A DNA stretch of 23,675 nt. It comes from a virus. The stretch spans positions 1 to 23,675 of the IMG/VR virus record IMGVR_UViG_3300044630_007392; one strand, given 5' to 3'. The translations under genes and the position numbers were made by a program. How positions within the stretch are numbered: the first letter of the stretch is position 1; the number at the start of each line of letters is the position of its first letter. The notes under the pieces are model-generated. The model did no database searches, was not told the origin of the DNA, and saw only the letters and a list, made by a program, of their open reading frames with translations. Positions 4,977 to 23,675 of this stretch are shown in pieces.

Positions 4977-6578
4977 TTAGAATCCTATAAATGACTTCCT
5001 TGGTTCTTGATTTGGTTCATCTGGTCCAGACCAATTTGGTGAATCGGGTGATTTGTCCACTTCAAATTTACTTAAGAATCTAGCATCTTTTTTAAGGTCA
5101 TTAGCTATTGTATCGTCAATTACAATATAACTTATACTACCAAAACTTCTTTGTATTTTACTTGCTTGTAGTTTAGGGTTTGTCGATAGAAAAAATTCAC
5201 CTGTTGCAAATCTATATTTTGGTTTCTTATTAACTAAAAAATTATATATATTAGCAATTCTATATCCTTGTTCTTTATATGCATCGTACTTCATAACCGA
5301 AAACATATTTTTTTCTTTATCTGTTTCCATCAGTAAAAAAACTAATTCCATTCCTTGTTTTACCACATCCGAAGACATTTCAAACTTTGATGTTTCTGAT
5401 GAATCAGACCTAACACTAACATTAAATCCTAGACCCATAGAGTTAATTCTGTTCATTTCCCTAACAAATAACGGGCCGTGTTTAGCATTAACATCTTGTT
5501 GCATCCAAAAAACGTGAATCATTTCATGTGCTAAAACGTCTTTAAAAAATTTATACGGTACCTTAAGAAATTGAGACATGCTCAGCGATTTTAATGTGAT
5601 TTTTCCAGTTGCTCTATTTCTGGTACCTTTAACAACACCGTGTGCGCCCTTTCTTTTATTCCAAAGCATCGTTACTGGTTGTAAGTTACCATCAAATAAT
5701 AAATTATTTAATTTATTATATTCCTGTTGTAGGTCAATTTCGTTAAAATCTACAATTTCATCATCGGTATGTTCTCTACCTTCATTTATTGAGGGTGGCG
5801 GTGTATTGGCATTAATAAGTGCCATTCTAGCCTTATTAATAACATAAACTCTTACAGCGTGTGATATTTTTTTATCTCTAAGTTTTTCTAAGAGGTATTC
5901 TTCAATAAGTTTAACATCCTCTAAACCTTCAATATGCTCTATCATATTTACCATTAGCTTATGTAGCGGTTTCGTTGGAAACTCTCTTGCTTTGGTCATT
6001 TTTAATACTTTTATAGCAGCTTCTTTTGGTGTTAATGGTTCTTGAGGTACAACAGATTCGTGTAATAAAGTTTTAATGAATATTTTTGTTTCATTAACAC
6101 CTTTTTCCATTTTTTTCAATCTTGTATAATAGTCAGGAATTTCTTCTAAGTGGTCTAGCGCTATTTCTTTTGCTTTTTTTTTACTTTTTGTATGTTCGGT
6201 CTCAACATTTATCCCCATACTTAGTTCGTCATCTAATAGTTCATACATTTTCTGAACTTTTGTGTTGTCATCAGAATCTTCACCAGCGTGTTTTTTCGCA
6301 ATATCCATCAATCTGTTCTCAGTTAAGTATGGATAATCCGGATTTTTAGGGAATAGTTCTTTAACTATATCAACTAATTCTTGAGTATATGTTGCAATTG
6401 TGTTTTCTTCAGTCATTGGGTCCCAAGCTTGTTCTGAAATATTTTTTAAATATGTTTCAAATCTTTCAGGATTAACCAAATCGTTAGCCGCCATTTTTAA
6501 AAAATCAGCAGTAAATCCTTTTACTACGTCTTGTTTTACTATTTCTCTAGCTTTATTTATTAATTCTTGTCTATTCAT
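4977..6578 (-). CDS. SprT-like zinc metallopeptidase with a long N-terminal region
   Basis: A 533-aa protein, last gene of a minus-strand operon. Its ATG overlaps the previous stop (TAATG), suggesting coupled translation. Residues about 118-157 (ELSMGINVETEHT, then AKEIALDHL and IPDYYTRL) look like the DUF5661-type motif seen in several phages and bacteria. The C-terminal half (about 285-385) is SprT-like: HEMIH at 351-355 supplies two His ligands and the catalytic Glu, and KHGPLF (His367) the likely third ligand. SprT-type enzymes are cytosolic metalloproteases that act on DNA-bound proteins in cellular homologues. An INE-G triplet (264-267) lies between the two halves and an LHE-S at 172-175. 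Substrate unknown. Confidence 0.85.
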   Translation of the reverse strand: MNRQELINKAREIVKQDVVKGFTADFLKMAANDLVNPERFETYLKNISEQAWDPMTEENTIATYTQELVDIVKELFPKNPDYPYLTENRLMDIAKKHAGEDSDDNTKVQKMYELLDDELSMGINVETEHTKSKKKAKEIALDHLEEIPDYYTRLKKMEKGVNETKIFIKTLLHESVVPQEPLTPKEAAIKVLKMTKAREFPTKPLHKLMVNMIEHIEGLEDVKLIEEYLLEKLRDKKISHAVRVYVINKARMALINANTPPPSINEGREHTDDEIVDFNEIDLQQEYNKLNNLLFDGNLQPVTMLWNKRKGAHGVVKGTRNRATGKITLKSLSMSQFLKVPYKFFKDVLAHEMIHVFWMQQDVNAKHGPLFVREMNRINSMGLGFNVSVRSDSSETSKFEMSSDVVKQGMELVFLLMETDKEKNMFSVMKYDAYKEQGYRIANIYNFLVNKKPKYRFATGEFFLSTNPKLQASKIQRSFGSISYIVIDDTIANDLKKDARFLSKFEVDKSPDSPNWSGPDEPNQEPRKSFIGF

Positions 6579-6970
6579 TATGGATAAATTTCGGGGTGTT
6601 CTTCACCAAATTTTCTAATTATTTGACCAGCAACTGAATTTGCTTCATTTTCAATTGGGGACCCAGCGGCATTGTTTGAGTCGTAATTTGACGCATCTAA
6701 TCTACCTTCGATATCTTGTTTTAGATGAACCATTTCGTGTGCTGTTGACCTCATGATATCAACCATAGCTCTATCTTTGGCATAGACTTTGATTTTATAA
6801 TCACCATATGAGGCTGTCGTTGTAAGTCCCTCGTGTTTAAACTTAAGTGTTACCTTTGGTTTTTTTATTCCTAGGAACTTTGAGGCAAAATCAATAAATA
6901 ACTCTAATAATTTTATTTGACTATTAGATTCTTTATTGAACATTGCCTCATTTATCATTTTATTTTTCAT
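6578..6970 (-). CDS. Small HExxH zinc metallopeptidase-like protein
   Basis: A 130-aa protein with the zincin signature HEMVH at 78-82 and a downstream Glu-rich PIENEAN segment (105-111) whose Glu could be the third zinc ligand. It is a compact single-domain enzyme, unlike the SprT-like neighbour, and the two share little outside HExxH. No signal peptide, so cytosolic. It lies between clpC (33 nt gap) and the SprT-like gene (1-nt overlap), so the three are likely co-expressed; an ATATTTAT motif 4 nt before its ATG may add an internal promoter. The N-terminal MINEAM contains INE-A. Confidence 0.85.
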   Translation of the reverse strand: MKNKMINEAMFNKESNSQIKLLELFIDFASKFLGIKKPKVTLKFKHEGLTTTASYGDYKIKVYAKDRAMVDIMRSTAHEMVHLKQDIEGRLDASNYDSNNAAGSPIENEANSVAGQIIRKFGEEHPEIYP

Positions 6971-11249: not shown

Positions 11250-12209
11250 ATGAAAGAAAAAATAAATCCAGTTGGTCTCAAAGGTAATCAAATTACTGAG
11301 CGTATGAAACAATTAATGGGTGTTGCACCGATTAATGAAGATAAAAAAACATCAGTTGTTGAGTTAACTAAAAAAGGGCCAGATGGAAGAGTATATGGTA
11401 TCGTAAGAGAAAACCACGAATACTATATTAAAGTAACTACAAAGCAAGAAAATCTTGTTGTTGAAGACTTCCAATATATTGGTGGATTACAAAATAAAAA
11501 ACAAGAAGCGTACCCTTCTTATGCTAAAGCAATAAAGCATTTAAATCTTAAATTTCATAGCCTTAATGAGGCTTATGGTAAGTCAGGTCAAATTAATGTT
11601 TTTTTAAACGATAAATTATTGAAAGAAGACTATGCAGCATTTGAAAGCATGGGTTCCGGATTTAAAGCTGAAGGTAATATGGAAGGCCATATGAGAAGTG
11701 AATGCTGTGGTGCACAAACAATGGAAGGAATGTGTATGGAATGTGGTGGTTCAGCTTATGGTGGTGGAATGAATGAATTTGATAAATCAGCTATGGATAG
11801 CTTCCAAAAGCAATATGGTGGCGAAAAGGGTAAAAGTATTTATTATGCTACAGCAAATAAGCAGGACCGTAATCCAGAAACATTTGAAAAAAATGAAGGC
11901 ATGGGTATGTCATACGAAATGGAAATGAACGATGGGTCATATGTTGACCGTCCAGTTCCAGAAGAAGTAGAATTAACTGATGAAATGGCCGCAGTTGAAG
12001 CTATGATGGAGAAAGAAGAAGAAATGACGGATAAAGAGAAAGAATTTGCAGCTTTAGCACCTCCTCATGATAAAATAACTTATGCCGATAAAATTGCTGG
12101 TGCTACCAAAGGAAAAAATGAAGGTAAACTATCAATTGAAAGGGCTATGAGTATGATGGATGAAATGATTGATGAGTTACAAGAATCTCAAAGTAAAAAA
12201 AAACTCTAA
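11250..12209 (+). CDS. Modular putative head protein, N-terminal part (frame ends after A9)
   Basis: The zero-frame product is 319 aa. Residues about 43-105 form a Tyr/Lys beta-rich domain (YGIVRENHEYYIK, YIGGLQNKKQEAYPSYAKA) ending at LNE-A (105-108). Residues 152-165 hold a zinc-ribbon-like Cys cluster, CC-x8-C-x2-C. Residues about 178-212 form a module FDKSAMDSFQKQYG, then YYATANKQDR. A Met/Glu-rich acidic tail ends ELQES and SKKKL. The stop at 12207 comes just after an A9 run, and the -1 frame continues as TLIESNLEEVKYKLKLGAKS into the next gene. The two are therefore probably one 789-aa protein. First gene of the operon ending at 17807. Confidence 0.75.
   Translation: MKEKINPVGLKGNQITERMKQLMGVAPINEDKKTSVVELTKKGPDGRVYGIVRENHEYYIKVTTKQENLVVEDFQYIGGLQNKKQEAYPSYAKAIKHLNLKFHSLNEAYGKSGQINVFLNDKLLKEDYAAFESMGSGFKAEGNMEGHMRSECCGAQTMEGMCMECGGSAYGGGMNEFDKSAMDSFQKQYGGEKGKSIYYATANKQDRNPETFEKNEGMGMSYEMEMNDGSYVDRPVPEEVELTDEMAAVEAMMEKEEEMTDKEKEFAALAPPHDKITYADKIAGATKGKNEGKLSIERAMSMMDEMIDELQESQSKKKL
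12195..12203 (+). other. A9 slippery run: frameshift joining two halves of a head protein
   Basis: The zero frame reads AGT AAA AAA AAA CTC TAA, which includes the -1 heptamer A-AAA-AAA. A -1 shift, transcriptional slippage, or a missing A (true A10) would give an uninterrupted 789-aa frame. The downstream frame is open back to 12197 and has no ATG near its start, which argues against independent translation. Confidence 0.7.
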
Positions 12210-12241
12210 TTGAGTCTAATTTAGAAGAAGTTAAATACAAG

Positions 12242-13618
12242 TTGAAGCTCGGGGCTAAATCGGCCCCAGCTCCAGCTGAAGAACCTACCGATACGGCTCC
12301 CGCCGAAGAACCTGAAGATGCAACTCAAGATACATCAGGAGGTGATTTAGATTTTAGTACAGATACTGGCGATGATGCAGCTACCGATACCGGAGCTGAA
12401 GATACAAGTTCAAATGATAAACCATTTGATGATGAGCCGTTTGATGCTGGTGTAGAAGCTAGTGAGGAAGATGACCCTAAAAAATTTATTGAACAACTAA
12501 CTGGTAAGTTAGGACAATCTCTTAGAAAATATACTGAAGACAAAGGAGAACCAGACTTTGAATTGGAAAAGTTTGCTGTTAATTCTTTGCTATCTGCAAC
12601 ACATACAGGTGAAATGGATAGTGAAGACCAAAAAGATATTATTAAGAAAGTTAAAAAATCTGGTAAGGGTGACGAAAATGTAGATTCATCTGAAGAAACA
12701 GAAACTACAGATACTGAGGTGACGGATGATGGTGAAGTAACCGACACTGAAACCACAGACACTGAAGTAACTGATGATTCAGAAAATATGTTTGAAACTG
12801 AAGCGTTAGATGAAATGTCACTTAATGATTATATGACTAAAGATTTAATTGACTTGTATGACAATAGTAAAGGTGACGCTAGAGAAATTATATTTAGAAA
12901 AGTTACACTTACAAAACCTTTTCCAGAGAAAGACGAAAAAGATAGAAATTTAAATAGAGAAAAGTTTTTAATTGATTTACAAGATGATGTAGACAAAGAG
13001 CATTTGGATGAGATTATGGGTGAGTTAGAAGAAATGGGAATTTACAATGACCCAAGAGCAAAAGTTGTTAAAATGTTTGAGAATAATTTTATTTTACAAA
13101 CCCCTAAAAAAAACAACATGTTTCAAGAAGGTTCTAATGATATTTTAGATGAGTATGAAATATATGAAGTGGTTGAAGAGGGTAAAAAGAAAAAAAAGAA
13201 AACAAAAAAAGATGCTTGCTACCATAAAGTAAGGGCTAGATATGATGTATGGCCATCGGCTTATGCTTCTGGGGCTTTAGTTAAGTGTAGAAAAGCTGGC
13301 GCTGCTAACTGGGGTAACAGTACAGATGAATCTGTTGAATTAACTGAAGCTGTTGGTAAAGAGGCAATGAAAAAAAAATGTACTGTTATAGCAAAACGTA
13401 AACACAATAAATTTCCTTCAGCTAAAGCGGTAGAAGATATAGTGGCTTGTGTTGCTGGTAAAATATGGGCGGATGAAATTAAAAAATTAAATGAAGCTGA
13501 AGAATTAGAGTCATTAAAAGAAAAATGGTCAGCAAAGTATAAAAAAAGCATAGATTGTAATAACCCAAAGGGATTTAGCCAAAAAGCACATTGTCAAGGA
13601 AAGAAAAAACATGAGTAA
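12242..13618 (+). CDS. Modular acidic/Cys-basic putative head protein (C-terminal part)
   Basis: Given from the first TTG (458 aa), though the frame is open from 12197 and is probably read by frameshift from the gene before. Order: Pro/Ala/Glu linker with GDLDFS (34-39); acidic Thr/Asp repeats (153-179); helical region (190-310); a lysine run (315-320); Cys-basic module A (Cys326 to Cys349, containing WPSAYA and LVKC); LTE-A (367-370); module B with identical Cys spacing (Cys380 to Cys403, FPSAKA); LNE-A (416-419); and a final basic peptide with KSIDCN and KGFSQKAHC (Cys439, Cys451). [L]-x-E-A triplets flank module B exactly, as if to release a 49-residue basic peptide. It overlaps the next gene by 8 nt. 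Role inferred: capsid-internal or scaffold precursor. Confidence 0.75.
   Translation: MKLGAKSAPAPAEEPTDTAPAEEPEDATQDTSGGDLDFSTDTGDDAATDTGAEDTSSNDKPFDDEPFDAGVEASEEDDPKKFIEQLTGKLGQSLRKYTEDKGEPDFELEKFAVNSLLSATHTGEMDSEDQKDIIKKVKKSGKGDENVDSSEETETTDTEVTDDGEVTDTETTDTEVTDDSENMFETEALDEMSLNDYMTKDLIDLYDNSKGDAREIIFRKVTLTKPFPEKDEKDRNLNREKFLIDLQDDVDKEHLDEIMGELEEMGIYNDPRAKVVKMFENNFILQTPKKNNMFQEGSNDILDEYEIYEVVEEGKKKKKKTKKDACYHKVRARYDVWPSAYASGALVKCRKAGAANWGNSTDESVELTEAVGKEAMKKKCTVIAKRKHNKFPSAKAVEDIVACVAGKIWADEIKKLNEAEELESLKEKWSAKYKKSIDCNNPKGFSQKAHCQGKKKHE
12698..12778 (+). repeat. Two copies of an 11-residue acidic repeat, period 16 residues
   Basis: TETTDTEVTDD is encoded twice (12698-12730 and 12746-12778) with many synonymous codon differences. 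The peptide is conserved while the DNA has drifted. Confidence 0.8.
13217..13450 (+). repeat. Duplicated Cys-basic module, C-x10-[WF]-PSA-x-A-x3-[LI]-V-x-C
   Basis: Module A (Cys326-Cys349) and module B (Cys380-Cys403) have the same 23-residue Cys spacing and share the PSA, A, [LI]V and Cys positions. The sequences are otherwise divergent, so the duplication is old. Both are strongly basic before the PSA turn. Confidence 0.75.
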
Positions 13619-15443
13619 AGAAATAATATATACTAAACCTAATTTTCAAGACGAATGGGAAGAAGCTATTCGTTATCCTGAATTTAAGCAAATGGGTATA
13701 AAAAATTGGTATAATGTTGCTGGGCAAGGTTATACTACTAAGTATTCAAAAATTAAAGATGTATTGGGTAATGTTGATTTGGATTTTGATAATTTAGAAT
13801 CAGATAAAAAAGATAGGTTTTGGAAGGCTTATATTTCAGGTAAAGTAGAATTACCAATTGTTGTAAAGTTTGCTGATAATGATTACGATTTGCTTGGTGG
13901 TAATACCCGTTTGTCTGGATTAATATACCATGGAATTGACCCAGCAGTTTGGGTTGTTGATTTGGATGCGTTTTCAAAAAAAATGATTAATATGGCGCAT
14001 CAAAATATTACTAGAATAAAAGGTAAGGAATATGCACCAGATGCACAAGAATTAGGTGCATGGATTGTAAAATATTTAGAAAGTACTGGTGGGTTATTTA
14101 CTGCAGATTTAGACGAAGCAAAAAAAACAGATTATTCAAAAGAAAAATCACAAGGGTTACATGGTTGGTTTGCTAGAAGAGGTGGAGGCGGTAGTAGTGG
14201 TTGGGTAGATTGCAATACATGTAGAAAAGACTCTAAAACAGGTAGAAAAAAATGTAAACCATGTGGTAGACAAGATGGTGAAAAAAGAAAATATCCAGCT
14301 TGTAGACCAACACCAGCTTCTTGTGGGACAAGAGGTAAAGGTAAAAAATGGGGTAAAAAAAGTCATAATGAAAATGAAAATAAAGAAAGTATGAAAAACT
14401 TAATCACACAAAAGCTACATGAAATGGTAGAAGAAGGACATAATGAATTTCAAAATTATATGTTCTTTAATAATTTAATAACGATTAAAGAAGCAATTGA
14501 AGAAATGCTTCAAATGGATGCTCACGCTGTTGACCAATTACTTTCAGACGGTCATAACTGGGCACTAGACCATTTGGCAACTTCAGCTGATGACGTTGAG
14601 GAGGTTTACCATTTTTTAAACGCTAACCTTGGTGAACACGATGATGATTCATATTACGGTGATACCGAAGCTGGATATGAAGATGAGTGTGGTTCAGTTG
14701 AAGACGGTTCACACATGATGAATGAGGCTGAATATAAAGGTAGAAAAGTTCAATTAGGTAAACCAACTAGAGGTGATGTTAAAAAATACAAGGTATTTGT
14801 TAAAAACGCCAAAGGTAAAGTTGTAAAGGTTAATTTTGGTGACAAGAATATGGAAATCAAAAGAGATAACCCAAAAAGAAGAAAGTCATTCAGGGCTAGA
14901 CACAAATGTGCTCAAGCTAAAGATAGAACAACACCTAAATATTGGTCATGTAGAATGTGGTCTAAAAAGCCAGTCTCTAAAATAGTTGGTGAAAATTTTG
15001 GTTTTGAAGAAAATACTCGTATCTTTGTAAAAAAAAACGAAATGACACAACCAGCTACTAAACCTTTGGTTCCTGAAACAAAACCGAAAACAGCTCCAAA
15101 TCAACCAGTTAAACCTAGTAGAAGAGATAAACCATTTCTACCAGAAGTTGCACCCGGCATTAAAACAGACCCAAAAGCTATGAACGAAGGCAAGTTTGAT
15201 TATGAAACATATCATGAAACATTGGGCGCTGCCTTGGGTGAAATTGAGAGATATGCTCAATCTAGAGGTTATGACCCAGTTGAGTTTGGTCCGTTTGATA
15301 CTGAGCATGTTGCTTATGGTACAACTAAGAAAATTGCTATACCTTTAAGTATAAATGGTATGCCTAGAAAAAATAAGTATCTACAAGCTCAAATATATAG
15401 AATGGATAGCGGTAGATATGAATTAAATATGTATGTTGGGTAA
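13611..15443 (+). CDS. Multidomain putative head protein: ParB-like and two Cys-basic modules
   Basis: A 610-aa protein overlapping its upstream gene by 8 nt. Domains: (1) about 10-120, ParB/sulfiredoxin-like core ending DLLGGNTRL (93-101), with GGNTR in the position of the ParB GGxxR nucleotide motif; (2) about 170-250, after LDE-A (167-170), a Cys/Lys-rich module with LHGWFARR, GWVDCNTC, CKPCGR, KYPACRP and GKKWGKK (resembles DUF5872); (3) 373-455, after MNE-A (370-373), a basic module (KPTRGDVKKYKVF, RRKSFRARHKC, YWSCRMW); (4) 527-610, after MNE-G (524-527), a mixed alpha/beta C-terminal domain. An acidic helix-rich spacer (260-370) separates modules 2 and 3. Family members I recall occur in large phages without assigned function. 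Precursor of internal head peptides is an inference. Confidence 0.78.
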   Translation: MSKEIIYTKPNFQDEWEEAIRYPEFKQMGIKNWYNVAGQGYTTKYSKIKDVLGNVDLDFDNLESDKKDRFWKAYISGKVELPIVVKFADNDYDLLGGNTRLSGLIYHGIDPAVWVVDLDAFSKKMINMAHQNITRIKGKEYAPDAQELGAWIVKYLESTGGLFTADLDEAKKTDYSKEKSQGLHGWFARRGGGGSSGWVDCNTCRKDSKTGRKKCKPCGRQDGEKRKYPACRPTPASCGTRGKGKKWGKKSHNENENKESMKNLITQKLHEMVEEGHNEFQNYMFFNNLITIKEAIEEMLQMDAHAVDQLLSDGHNWALDHLATSADDVEEVYHFLNANLGEHDDDSYYGDTEAGYEDECGSVEDGSHMMNEAEYKGRKVQLGKPTRGDVKKYKVFVKNAKGKVVKVNFGDKNMEIKRDNPKRRKSFRARHKCAQAKDRTTPKYWSCRMWSKKPVSKIVGENFGFEENTRIFVKKNEMTQPATKPLVPETKPKTAPNQPVKPSRRDKPFLPEVAPGIKTDPKAMNEGKFDYETYHETLGAALGEIERYAQSRGYDPVEFGPFDTEHVAYGTTKKIAIPLSINGMPRKNKYLQAQIYRMDSGRYELNMYVG

Positions 15444-16601: not shown

Positions 16602-17807
16602 ATGAGCAATTTCAAAAAATTAGCTGAAAAAGCATTAGCAAATTCAAATAAAACTAAAACTCTAAACGAGAGTGTTGTTTATCCTGAAAATTTATCTGAA
16701 AGGATGCATGCATCTTTAGAAGAAGATTTAATTAAACAAAATCATTCTTTAGGTAAGCATCCAGCTTTTCCAGAAGGTGATGAATCATCTTTTGAGGAAA
16801 AAGTATTGGGTGAAAGATTTAATGAAGTTTGTAAGCGTTATAAAAGAGCATTTGATGTTGATACTATCAATAATCAAAATGTTATGATGGAGATGATGCC
16901 AATGGTTTATGAAACTATTGCATTAGAATCTAAGCATAAAAAAGAATTGGAAGAATTGGCGGTTAAAATGATTAGAGAGGAATATGGTATGAGTGAAGAT
17001 GTTGTTGAAATTGTTGCAGAATTAACCACTAATATTAATTTAGAAGGTACAAAGAAAAATCCAAAGCCAATGCCGGTTGAAGGCATGCAATTTGAATCTC
17101 ATGACGATATGGTTAATGCTACGAGTGAGGTTTACAAAAGAAGATTTTTAAATGCGATGGGGCAAGGTGCTGCAAAAAAATGTAATCATATGTTTCATAT
17201 GGTAGATGATGAATTAACCAATATGGACCCTAGATTACCAAACAAGTATAACAAAATGATGTCAGCAGCTGATTATATGTACTATGTAATACCAAAAATG
17301 GATGATGGTGTTAGTGGAGGTGTTGTTAGGGTTGACTTCCCAACGCCTGAAAATCCAAAAGCTAAGATACATGCACAAGGTATGGTATTCCCAGTTTTAA
17401 TTCATGAAATTGTAAAAGGTGTAATGGAACTATTGAATGGGCATGGTTTACCAAAAGATAAAAATATGACAAATTATGTTATTAATAAAGCAGATTTTTT
17501 AGCTGCTGAACCTTGGGATATGAGATTGGGGCCAGCTATCTGGGGTAAATTTACAGATGCAATTCCGGCTGAAGATTTTGATTTAAAACATCAAGTTTAT
17601 TGTGAGCTCGCGGCTTTACCAGCAAATGAATTTCATAAGCAAATGAAAGAAATAATGGCAGGTACAAAAAGAGGGCAAAAAGTAATTCAAGAAATATTAA
17701 ATGGTGTTAAAAGAGAGTTACAAGAAGATGAATTTAATAAAGCTTTGAATGAATTAAGTATGGGTGACGATTGGGAAAATAATTACTTAGATGAAGATTA
17801 TCTATAA
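16602..17807 (+). CDS. Conserved putative structural protein, last gene of the virion operon
   Basis: A 401-aa protein. The basic N-terminal segment (MSNFKKLAEKALANSNKTKT) is followed by LNE-S (21-24), which looks like a removable leader. The body has PAFPEGDESSFEE (about 54-66), GERFNEVCKRYKRAFD (70-85), a helical region, and a mixed domain with HAQGMVFPVLIHEIVKG (about 254-270). LIHEIVK contains H-E but no second His, so it is not a zincin. The C terminus is acidic. It ends at a terminator. I recall similar proteins from large marine-type phages but no assigned function. Confidence 0.75.
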   Translation: MSNFKKLAEKALANSNKTKTLNESVVYPENLSERMHASLEEDLIKQNHSLGKHPAFPEGDESSFEEKVLGERFNEVCKRYKRAFDVDTINNQNVMMEMMPMVYETIALESKHKKELEELAVKMIREEYGMSEDVVEIVAELTTNINLEGTKKNPKPMPVEGMQFESHDDMVNATSEVYKRRFLNAMGQGAAKKCNHMFHMVDDELTNMDPRLPNKYNKMMSAADYMYYVIPKMDDGVSGGVVRVDFPTPENPKAKIHAQGMVFPVLIHEIVKGVMELLNGHGLPKDKNMTNYVINKADFLAAEPWDMRLGPAIWGKFTDAIPAEDFDLKHQVYCELAALPANEFHKQMKEIMAGTKRGQKVIQEILNGVKRELQEDEFNKALNELSMGDDWENNYLDEDYL

Positions 17808-23212: not shown

Positions 23213-23675
23213 ATGCAGAACTTTGGAAAAATTAAAAATACATTCAATAATTTGCTAATTGAAGGCATCGTTAAAAACGATGAAAACATTAAAAAATTGT
23301 TTAAAAAATACATTAAAACAATTAAAGAAAGTGAAATATTGAAAACACAATTTTTAATTTATAGCAATATTGAAAATAAAGTTGACACCGAACAGTTATC
23401 TGCTTTTTCATTTGTTTCAGAAAATTTTAGATTGTTAGAAAAATATAGTCAATCAGATATATTAAAAGAAAATAAAAAATTATTAAGTTTATTAAAAAAC
23501 TTTAATAATAAATTTTCAGATTCATATGATTTGCAGGATTTACACGAATCAATGAGTAAAATTACCTTTACAAAAAGGTCACCCAAAAATGTTGAACCAT
23601 TGATGGTTGAGATTAAAAAAGTTTCTGAATTTATTAATAAAAATAAAGTAAAAGAAATTAAGGAAACATTTGACT
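23213..23675 (+). CDS. Partial putative head/prohead protein (N-terminal 154 aa)
   Basis: An ATG at 23213 opens a frame that runs to the window edge without a stop. The product starts MQNFGKIKNTFNNLLIEGIV, a short basic/amphipathic leader with LIE-G at residues 15-18, then Lys/Leu/Asn-rich helices (KKLFKKYIKTIKESEILK, LLSLLKNFNNKF). In T4 the genes after portal are the prohead core proteins and the prohead protease, so a core or scaffold role is plausible by position. The family is not identified from this fragment. Confidence 0.7.
   Translation, partial: MQNFGKIKNTFNNLLIEGIVKNDENIKKLFKKYIKTIKESEILKTQFLIYSNIENKVDTEQLSAFSFVSENFRLLEKYSQSDILKENKKLLSLLKNFNNKFSDSYDLQDLHESMSKITFTKRSPKNVEPLMVEIKKVSEFINKNKVKEIKETFD

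Follow-up and report, generated by a model that had tools for sequence, protein, structure and literature searches.

Three adjacent genes of a T4-like phage, encoding the proteins P1, P2 and P3 (11250-15443), are nearly devoid of Pfam matches. The 23,675-base window that we analyzed is the complete IMG/VR record IMGVR_UViG_3300044630_007392, a phage fragment with a T4-type terminase and portal. Both P2 and P3 have individual modules that match PHROG families whose function is unknown. The families phrog_727, phrog_7595, DUF5754 and DUF5872, also of unknown function, correspond to individual modules in P2, in P3 or in related proteins, and the match of DUF5754 (PF19058) in P3 scores 17.8 bits, under the curated cut-off of 27.4. 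Among longer relatives, the closest are L010, a contig of 168.9 kb whose portal is 93% identical, and L003, one of 36.9 kb (88%). A sequence-only reading had proposed that the three genes encode head-type polyproteins, with modules bounded by sites like those cut by gp21, the prohead protease of T4. Our analysis leads us to think that P1, P2 and P3 are quite probably internal-head (cargo) polyproteins of an aquatic T4-like phage, composed of small interchangeable domains joined by cut sites, and each cut in the forming head into several packaged pieces.

The triplets on which that reading relied are all present in the window (a slash marks the bond after Glu). P1 has LNE/A at residues 105-108, P2 has LTE/A at 367-370 and LNE/A at 416-419, which flank module B exactly, and P3 has LDE/A at 167-170, MNE/A at 370-373 and MNE/G at 524-527. 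Outside these proteins, LNE/S occurs at residues 21-24 of the protein starting at 16602, LIE/G in the last gene and INE/G in the portal tail. P3 also contains a match that had gone unmentioned, IKE/A at 292-295, but this one (residue 294) is placed within a helix by the structure prediction and is unlikely to be cut. The motif [LIM]xE[AGS] occurs eight times in P1-P3 of the window against 3.6 expected in shuffled sequences (p = 0.02), and eight times against 5.3 in terL, clpC and a glycosyltransferase taken together (p = 0.15). The narrower [LIM]NE[AGS], a motif chosen post hoc, is found four times in P1-P3 against 0.18 expected. When non-redundant family members are compared with expectation, the ratios are 2.6, 2.3 and 2.6 for P1, P2 and P3, 4.7 for the last gene, 2.3 for both the scaffold and the protease, 0.9 for the portal, 0.8 for terL and 1.9 for clpC. 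The proposed enrichment over shuffled sequences and non-virion genes is thus mild: it is detectable in P1-P3 and absent from terL, but clpC is raised too. Since clpC also reaches 1.9, counting alone cannot diagnose cut sites and is suggestive at best, and we dropped raw counts as the main argument.

It is the position of the motif, not its count, that decides the case for the predicted cut sites. We made profiles for ten modules and applied seven of them to the open reading frames (ORFs) of approximately 250 loci, taking all edge counts over 90 non-redundant proteins. Motifs of the [LIM]xE type occur 105 times at the N-terminal edges of modules, against 12 expected, and 24 times at the C-terminal edges, against 5 expected; inside modules they occur at chance level (24 against 22.8). 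The control [LIM]xD[AGST] is never found at N-terminal edges (5.5 expected). At these edges [AVF]xE[AGST] is also raised, 3.4-fold, and V at site P3 may be accepted by the protease (residues around the predicted bond are called site P1, site P1' and so on, to keep them apart from the proteins). The motif lies at the edge of different modules (M1/M2, M4, M5, M6 and M7), and the sequence upstream of it differs. In a breakpoint test with BLAST, 33% of homology starts fall within 10 residues of a motif, compared to 17% of random positions. Site P3 coincides exactly with 48 starts, and 636 of 4,827 pairwise starts do so in both proteins, with M5 as the largest contributor.

The coincidence of homology breakpoints and triplets would also be seen if the triplets were recombination joints, short shared ends of DNA or protein used for domain shuffling, at which nothing is cut. 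This is very unlikely, given that the triplet is equally conserved where the architecture is constant, namely in gp23, in P1 (62 of 69 relatives) and in the 16602 protein, whose motif is present in 67 of 79 non-redundant relatives. Alternatively, the L-x-E/A triplets could be part of the folded modules, or conserved linker ends, with no role for a protease. Residues at sites P1'-P4' are conserved along with M5 and M4, and part of the signal could therefore be structural; shared ancestry, moreover, inflates the counts. However, 5' of M5 site P3 is mostly L, I or M, site P1 is E in 80% and site P1' is A in 71%, while site P2 is variable and sites P4-P12 are poorly conserved. The same triplet recurs at gp23, protease-tail and propeptide-like positions, and free-standing M5 proteins, two of which begin at site P1', lack L-x-E. 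We consider a purely structural role unlikely.

The next question is which protease would cut at these sites. The gene order of the window carries on in L010: behind the portal come a gene for a core-like protein, some small genes and then those for an S77 prohead protease (E value 2e-22), a scaffold-like protein and gp23. S77 was detected in all nine relatives of the first search that had the portal or fused modules, seven of seven from IMG/VR and both cultured phages, Flavobacterium phage immuto and Microcystis phage Mel-JY01 (no paper naming immuto was found in the literature searched). In immuto, the S77 protease is gp070, and the module proteins include gp099, with ELDE/GEYRGK, and gp084. 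The gp21-like protease predicted just downstream of the window is hence there in L010 and other relatives, although the window record ends before it. In L136 (G006:C1:86918-88483), the S77 ORF is 622 amino acids (aa) long and its domain is in two pieces, with a probable intein or insert.

The cleavage rule reported for gp21 is of the L/I-x-E type, and D in place of the cut residue prevents processing of T4 IPIII (PMC9026906). The gp23 homologs of the IMG/VR relatives have LL[TSNC]E near residue 60 in 31 out of 31 cases, with S, T, A or G at site P1' and N once; T4 gp23 reads FLTE/A. As the rule was learned from gp23 and other proteins, its application to P1-P3 is independent. The (L/I)-x-E/(A/G/S) sites of P1-P3 agree with this gp23 site of the same clade, which was read independently and is of the same type. 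Cutting by another protease, of the phage or its host, might be invoked, as the window phage's own protease lies outside the record and ORFs with HExxH-type motifs occur nearby, but it is highly improbable because the motif matches exactly both the site of gp23 in this clade and the rule reported for gp21. The nearby ORFs are two adjacent ones on the minus strand (4977-6970) with HExxH-type metallopeptidase motifs recognized by eye, the second of which begins MKNKMINE/A.

Domains are shuffled between the predicted sites. The N-domain of P3 is common to the window and L003, whereas L010 has a different one (phrog_1915) that is joined at the triplet: the junction reads LFTADLDE/AKKTDYS against SNEHMNE/AKKTDYS in L010. 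In P2 of L010, module B and both flanking triplets are missing together. Both L003 and L010 have extra domains between M4 and M6, and these inserts are the only parts with ParB-like matches, which are weak (best PHROG E value 1e-5; Pfam ParB_N 0.016, below the cut-off). Overall, the polypeptides fall within the two to fifteen shuffled domains by which polyvalent proteins are recognized; of the effector domains typical of that class (nuclease, ART, peptidase and similar), the weak ParB-like matches are the only candidates seen. A module protein of 1,009 aa (L246:5231-8260) has an intein-like sequence interrupting its M1.

Module M5 also occurs on its own. Six phages without detected S77 carry it: it is a free small ORF in Aegir, HTVC111P, CRP-235, HTVC106P and CRP-2, and in CRP-6 it is fused to a different prohead protease, of the XkdF type. 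None of the free-standing proteins has L-x-E. Those of Aegir and HTVC111P start with MAKYQGR and MAKYKGR, and their residue 2 aligns with site P1' of E/AEYKGR. Fused M5 copies with a recognizable start in bacterial and archaeal assembly loci, inspected by eye (n = 15), show [LI]xE before A in eight cases, VxE before A, S or K in four and neither in three. The CRP-6 protein (gp55 of this Roseobacter phage; L257:7842-8531), which combines M5 with an XkdF-type (S78_2) prohead protease, is a second tie of the module to head assembly.

Structural models and charges give an indication of what the pieces might be. The whole-chain model of P3 is poor (mean predicted local distance difference test (pLDDT) 50); LDE/A, MNE/A and MNE/G lie in, or end, its low-confidence stretches, and the confident M7 begins right after MNE/G. 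A fold search with M7 returned only matches at Z below 5, which are uninformative. M5 modelled alone reaches a pLDDT of 85; it has no sequence match and no significant fold match in PDB, and its significant BFVD matches are viral proteins, one of them named XkdF. The charge of the predicted pieces ranges from +26 (M5 with linker) to -41 (N-part of P2), the M4 piece having +14, so that DNA condensation suits some pieces only. The proposal of basic DNA-condensing or injected peptides is supported only in part: several pieces are basic but others are strongly acidic, and close relatives have ParB-like inserts and exchange entire N-domains at the sites. Injected effectors are suggested by the ParB-like inserts of relatives. 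The cargo looks more like mixed injected proteins than DNA-condensing peptides alone, and DNA condensation by some basic pieces is plausible.

Acidic linkers and dense motifs resemble those of scaffold and core proteins, and in T4 the cleavage of core proteins yields several fragments, most of which leave the head (PMC9026906). The sites could thus be real and mainly serve to remove targeting or scaffold segments from a largely discarded core protein, like T4 gp22 and gp67, rather than to deliver cargo. We see a small but appreciable chance that this is correct; the folded Cys/Lys modules are retained and exchanged, M5 is a gene of its own in phages without detected S77, and homologs of the modules were detected in mature virions, all of which favor cargo.

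The virion evidence comes from cyanophages. Mass spectrometry of purified S-CREM2 virions detected gp160 and the cytidylyltransferase gp154 (PMC10665884). M1 of gp160 is preceded by ISE/G, and the N-terminus of gp154 is MKNFSSFLTE/A. The M1-bearing S-SCSM1_29 of phage S-SCSM1 is an annotated virion protein. The T4 internal proteins IPII and IPIII begin with MKTYQEFIAE/A and IPI with MKTFKEF, and capsid-targeting-like N-termini are found in module proteins of the relatives as well (MKTFAQYLTE/A, MKTFKEF... and MDLKRYLSE/A). The core idea of the sequence-only reading, head-type polyproteins with gp21-like sites around modules, is well supported by the protease downstream in close relatives, the similar gp23 site and a motif that keeps its place at module edges however the architecture is shuffled. 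The free-standing RARHKC module where S77 is undetected and the module homologs in cyanophage virions extend its basis.

Several observations weigh against cargo polyproteins. Cutting is predicted from sequence, and the window record stops short of the place expected for the protease. The relatives of a module share ancestry, so that the N-edge motifs do not amount to 105 independent events and the counts overstate independence. The edges also show V at site P3 and K or N at site P1'. The homologs detected by mass spectrometry have no more than single modules in common and come from cyanophages, and the authors of the S-CREM2 study warn that regulatory proteins expressed at high levels may be co-purified (PMC10665884). 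No T4-like targeting N-terminus, a propeptide of 10-19 residues in that class of proteins, was recognized in P2 and P3 of the window. Finally, G012 (199,865 bases), in which M5 is fused, matched neither S77 nor phrog_207; its gp23 was found as a fragment only and the phrog_207 search was run without positive control, and with its gp23 region incomplete it is a doubtful counter-example.

Table 1. Coordinates of P1-P3, their modules and the predicted cut sites in the window
Feature	Position	Strand	Remark
P1, 319 aa: conserved N-domain, Cys4 stretch, acidic tail	11250..12209	+	
P1 predicted cut SLNE/A, bond after 11570	11562..11573	+	Motif after N-domain in 62/69 non-redundant relatives
P2, 458 aa counted from TTG: acidic N-part, modules M1, M2 (module B), M3	12242..13618	+	
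Module M1 (ACYHKV...NWGNS) in P2	13205..13321	+	phrog_727 match; module homolog in gp160, a virion protein of S-CREM2
P2 predicted cut LTE/A, bond after 13348	13340..13351	+	Left edge of module B
Module M2 (module B), 49 aa with two Cys and a net charge of +6	13349..13495	+	
P2 predicted cut LNE/A, bond after 13495	13487..13498	+	Right edge of module B
Module M3 (CNNPKGFSQKAHC) in P2	13514..13615	+	
P3, 610 aa: N-domain, modules M4, M6, M5, M7	13611..15443	+	
P3 predicted cut LDE/A, bond after 14117	14109..14120	+	N-domain exchanged here in L010; 20 distinct contexts, E at site P1 in all
Module M4 (CxxC, basic) in P3	14145..14363	+	
Module M6 (helical; relatives often have tandem copies) in P3	14391..14621	+	
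P3 predicted cut MNE/A, bond after 14726	14718..14729	+	Immediately 5' of M5; 52 contexts, upstream sequence distinct
Module M5 (RARHKC...YWSC), predicted beta-beta-alpha-alpha	14727..14960	+	Separate ORF in phages where S77 was not detected; model pLDDT 85
P3 predicted cut MNE/G, bond after 15188	15180..15191	+	M7 start; conserved KA[MILV]xE/G
Module M7, P3 C-terminal domain	15189..15440	+	Confident portion of P3 model
LNE/S near N-terminus of 16602 protein, likely propeptide end	16662..16673	+	Motif in 67/79 non-redundant relatives
LIE/G near N-terminus of truncated last gene, likely prohead core protein	23255..23266	+	Motif near N-terminus in 47/55 relatives; family 4.7x enriched

Conserved in-frame sequence of P2 (LEEVKYKLKLGAK) begins 5' of TTG 12242, and no ATG, GTG or TTG was found ahead of it (IESNLEEVKYKLKLGAK). 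L010 has similar in-frame sequence also 5' of its own TTG. Because the conserved sequence begins upstream of the TTG, the real start of P2 is probably ATT 12209, which overlaps the P1 stop.

The motif is also found in neighboring genes. The product of 16602-17807 is a conserved late protein of unknown function, and its basic N-segment of approximately 20-35 residues, which ends with L-x-E/[AGST], is likely a propeptide. The window record ends inside the gene after the portal (23213-23674, truncated), which occupies the position of T4 gp67/gp68. The family of this last gene has 4.7 times the expected L-x-E, the motif lies near the N-terminus in 47 of 55 relatives, and its product is probably a prohead core protein that is cleaved into fragments. 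INE/G in the portal tail, put forward as a further triplet, is not conserved (motif in just 20 of 59 tails). Across the clade (viral-contig loci), [LIM]xE[AGST] falls at residues 10-19 of ORFs 107 times against 30 expected, with a contribution from the scaffold family, and this suggests further capsid-targeted proteins.

Several known systems resemble P1-P3 in part. The gp21-processed T4 proteins IPI, IPII, IPIII and Alt (PMC9026906) share the protease family, the L/I-x-E rule and basic internal proteins, and several relatives of P1-P3 have targeting N-termini of the same type. The T4 proteins, however, are small with one short propeptide each (Alt is cut at both ends), whereas P1-P3 link many modules in series and have a site at every junction. 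Polyvalent proteins of phages and conjugative elements (Iyer et al. 2017, PMC5512222) are likewise shuffled multidomain proteins of late regions that are thought to be injected, and close relatives have inserts with weak ParB-like matches; the processing of polyvalent proteins is ascribed mainly to built-in metallopeptidases (PMC5512222), while for P1-P3 the head-maturation protease is likely. In giant phages, many head proteins are cut after x-x-E by a gp21-related protease, gp245 in SPN3US and gp175 in phiKZ (PMC10052503, PMC9026906), with several sites in one protein, but 13 of 14 mapped SPN3US sites remove N-terminal propeptides and release of shuffled domains is unreported. The T4 core proteins gp67, gp68 and gp22 undergo multiple gp21 cuts per chain; P1-P3 differ in lying upstream of terL and in having folded Cys/Lys modules. 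Finally, phrog_727, phrog_7595, DUF5754 and DUF5872 are domain families only. We found no earlier description of modular prohead-protease polyproteins in the literature searched, which mostly excludes subscription papers.

The sites with their placement and conservation, the protease of the relatives and the shuffling of domains are computed results, from which we infer the cutting, packaging in this phage, ejection and what each module does. P1-P3 would enter the prohead core, where the S77 protease would cut them at module edges. The released pieces, several of them basic, would stay with the DNA and would probably be ejected into the host as T4 internal proteins are. During evolution, cargo domains would be gained, lost and exchanged between cut sites. 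More generally, the prohead protease could be a polyprotein processor throughout aquatic T4-like phages, with plug-in cargo domains that are inserted between L-x-E sites during evolution, loaded and released in the head and injected as separate effectors; for this broader proposal we regard the balance as even. If the reading of P1-P3 as cargo is true, a set of late proteins that lack annotation in T4-like phages of aquatic origin would be explained as payload. Their mature pieces would follow from a simple rule, a cut after [LIM]xE before A, G, S or T at a module edge, and what these phages inject would become directly testable.
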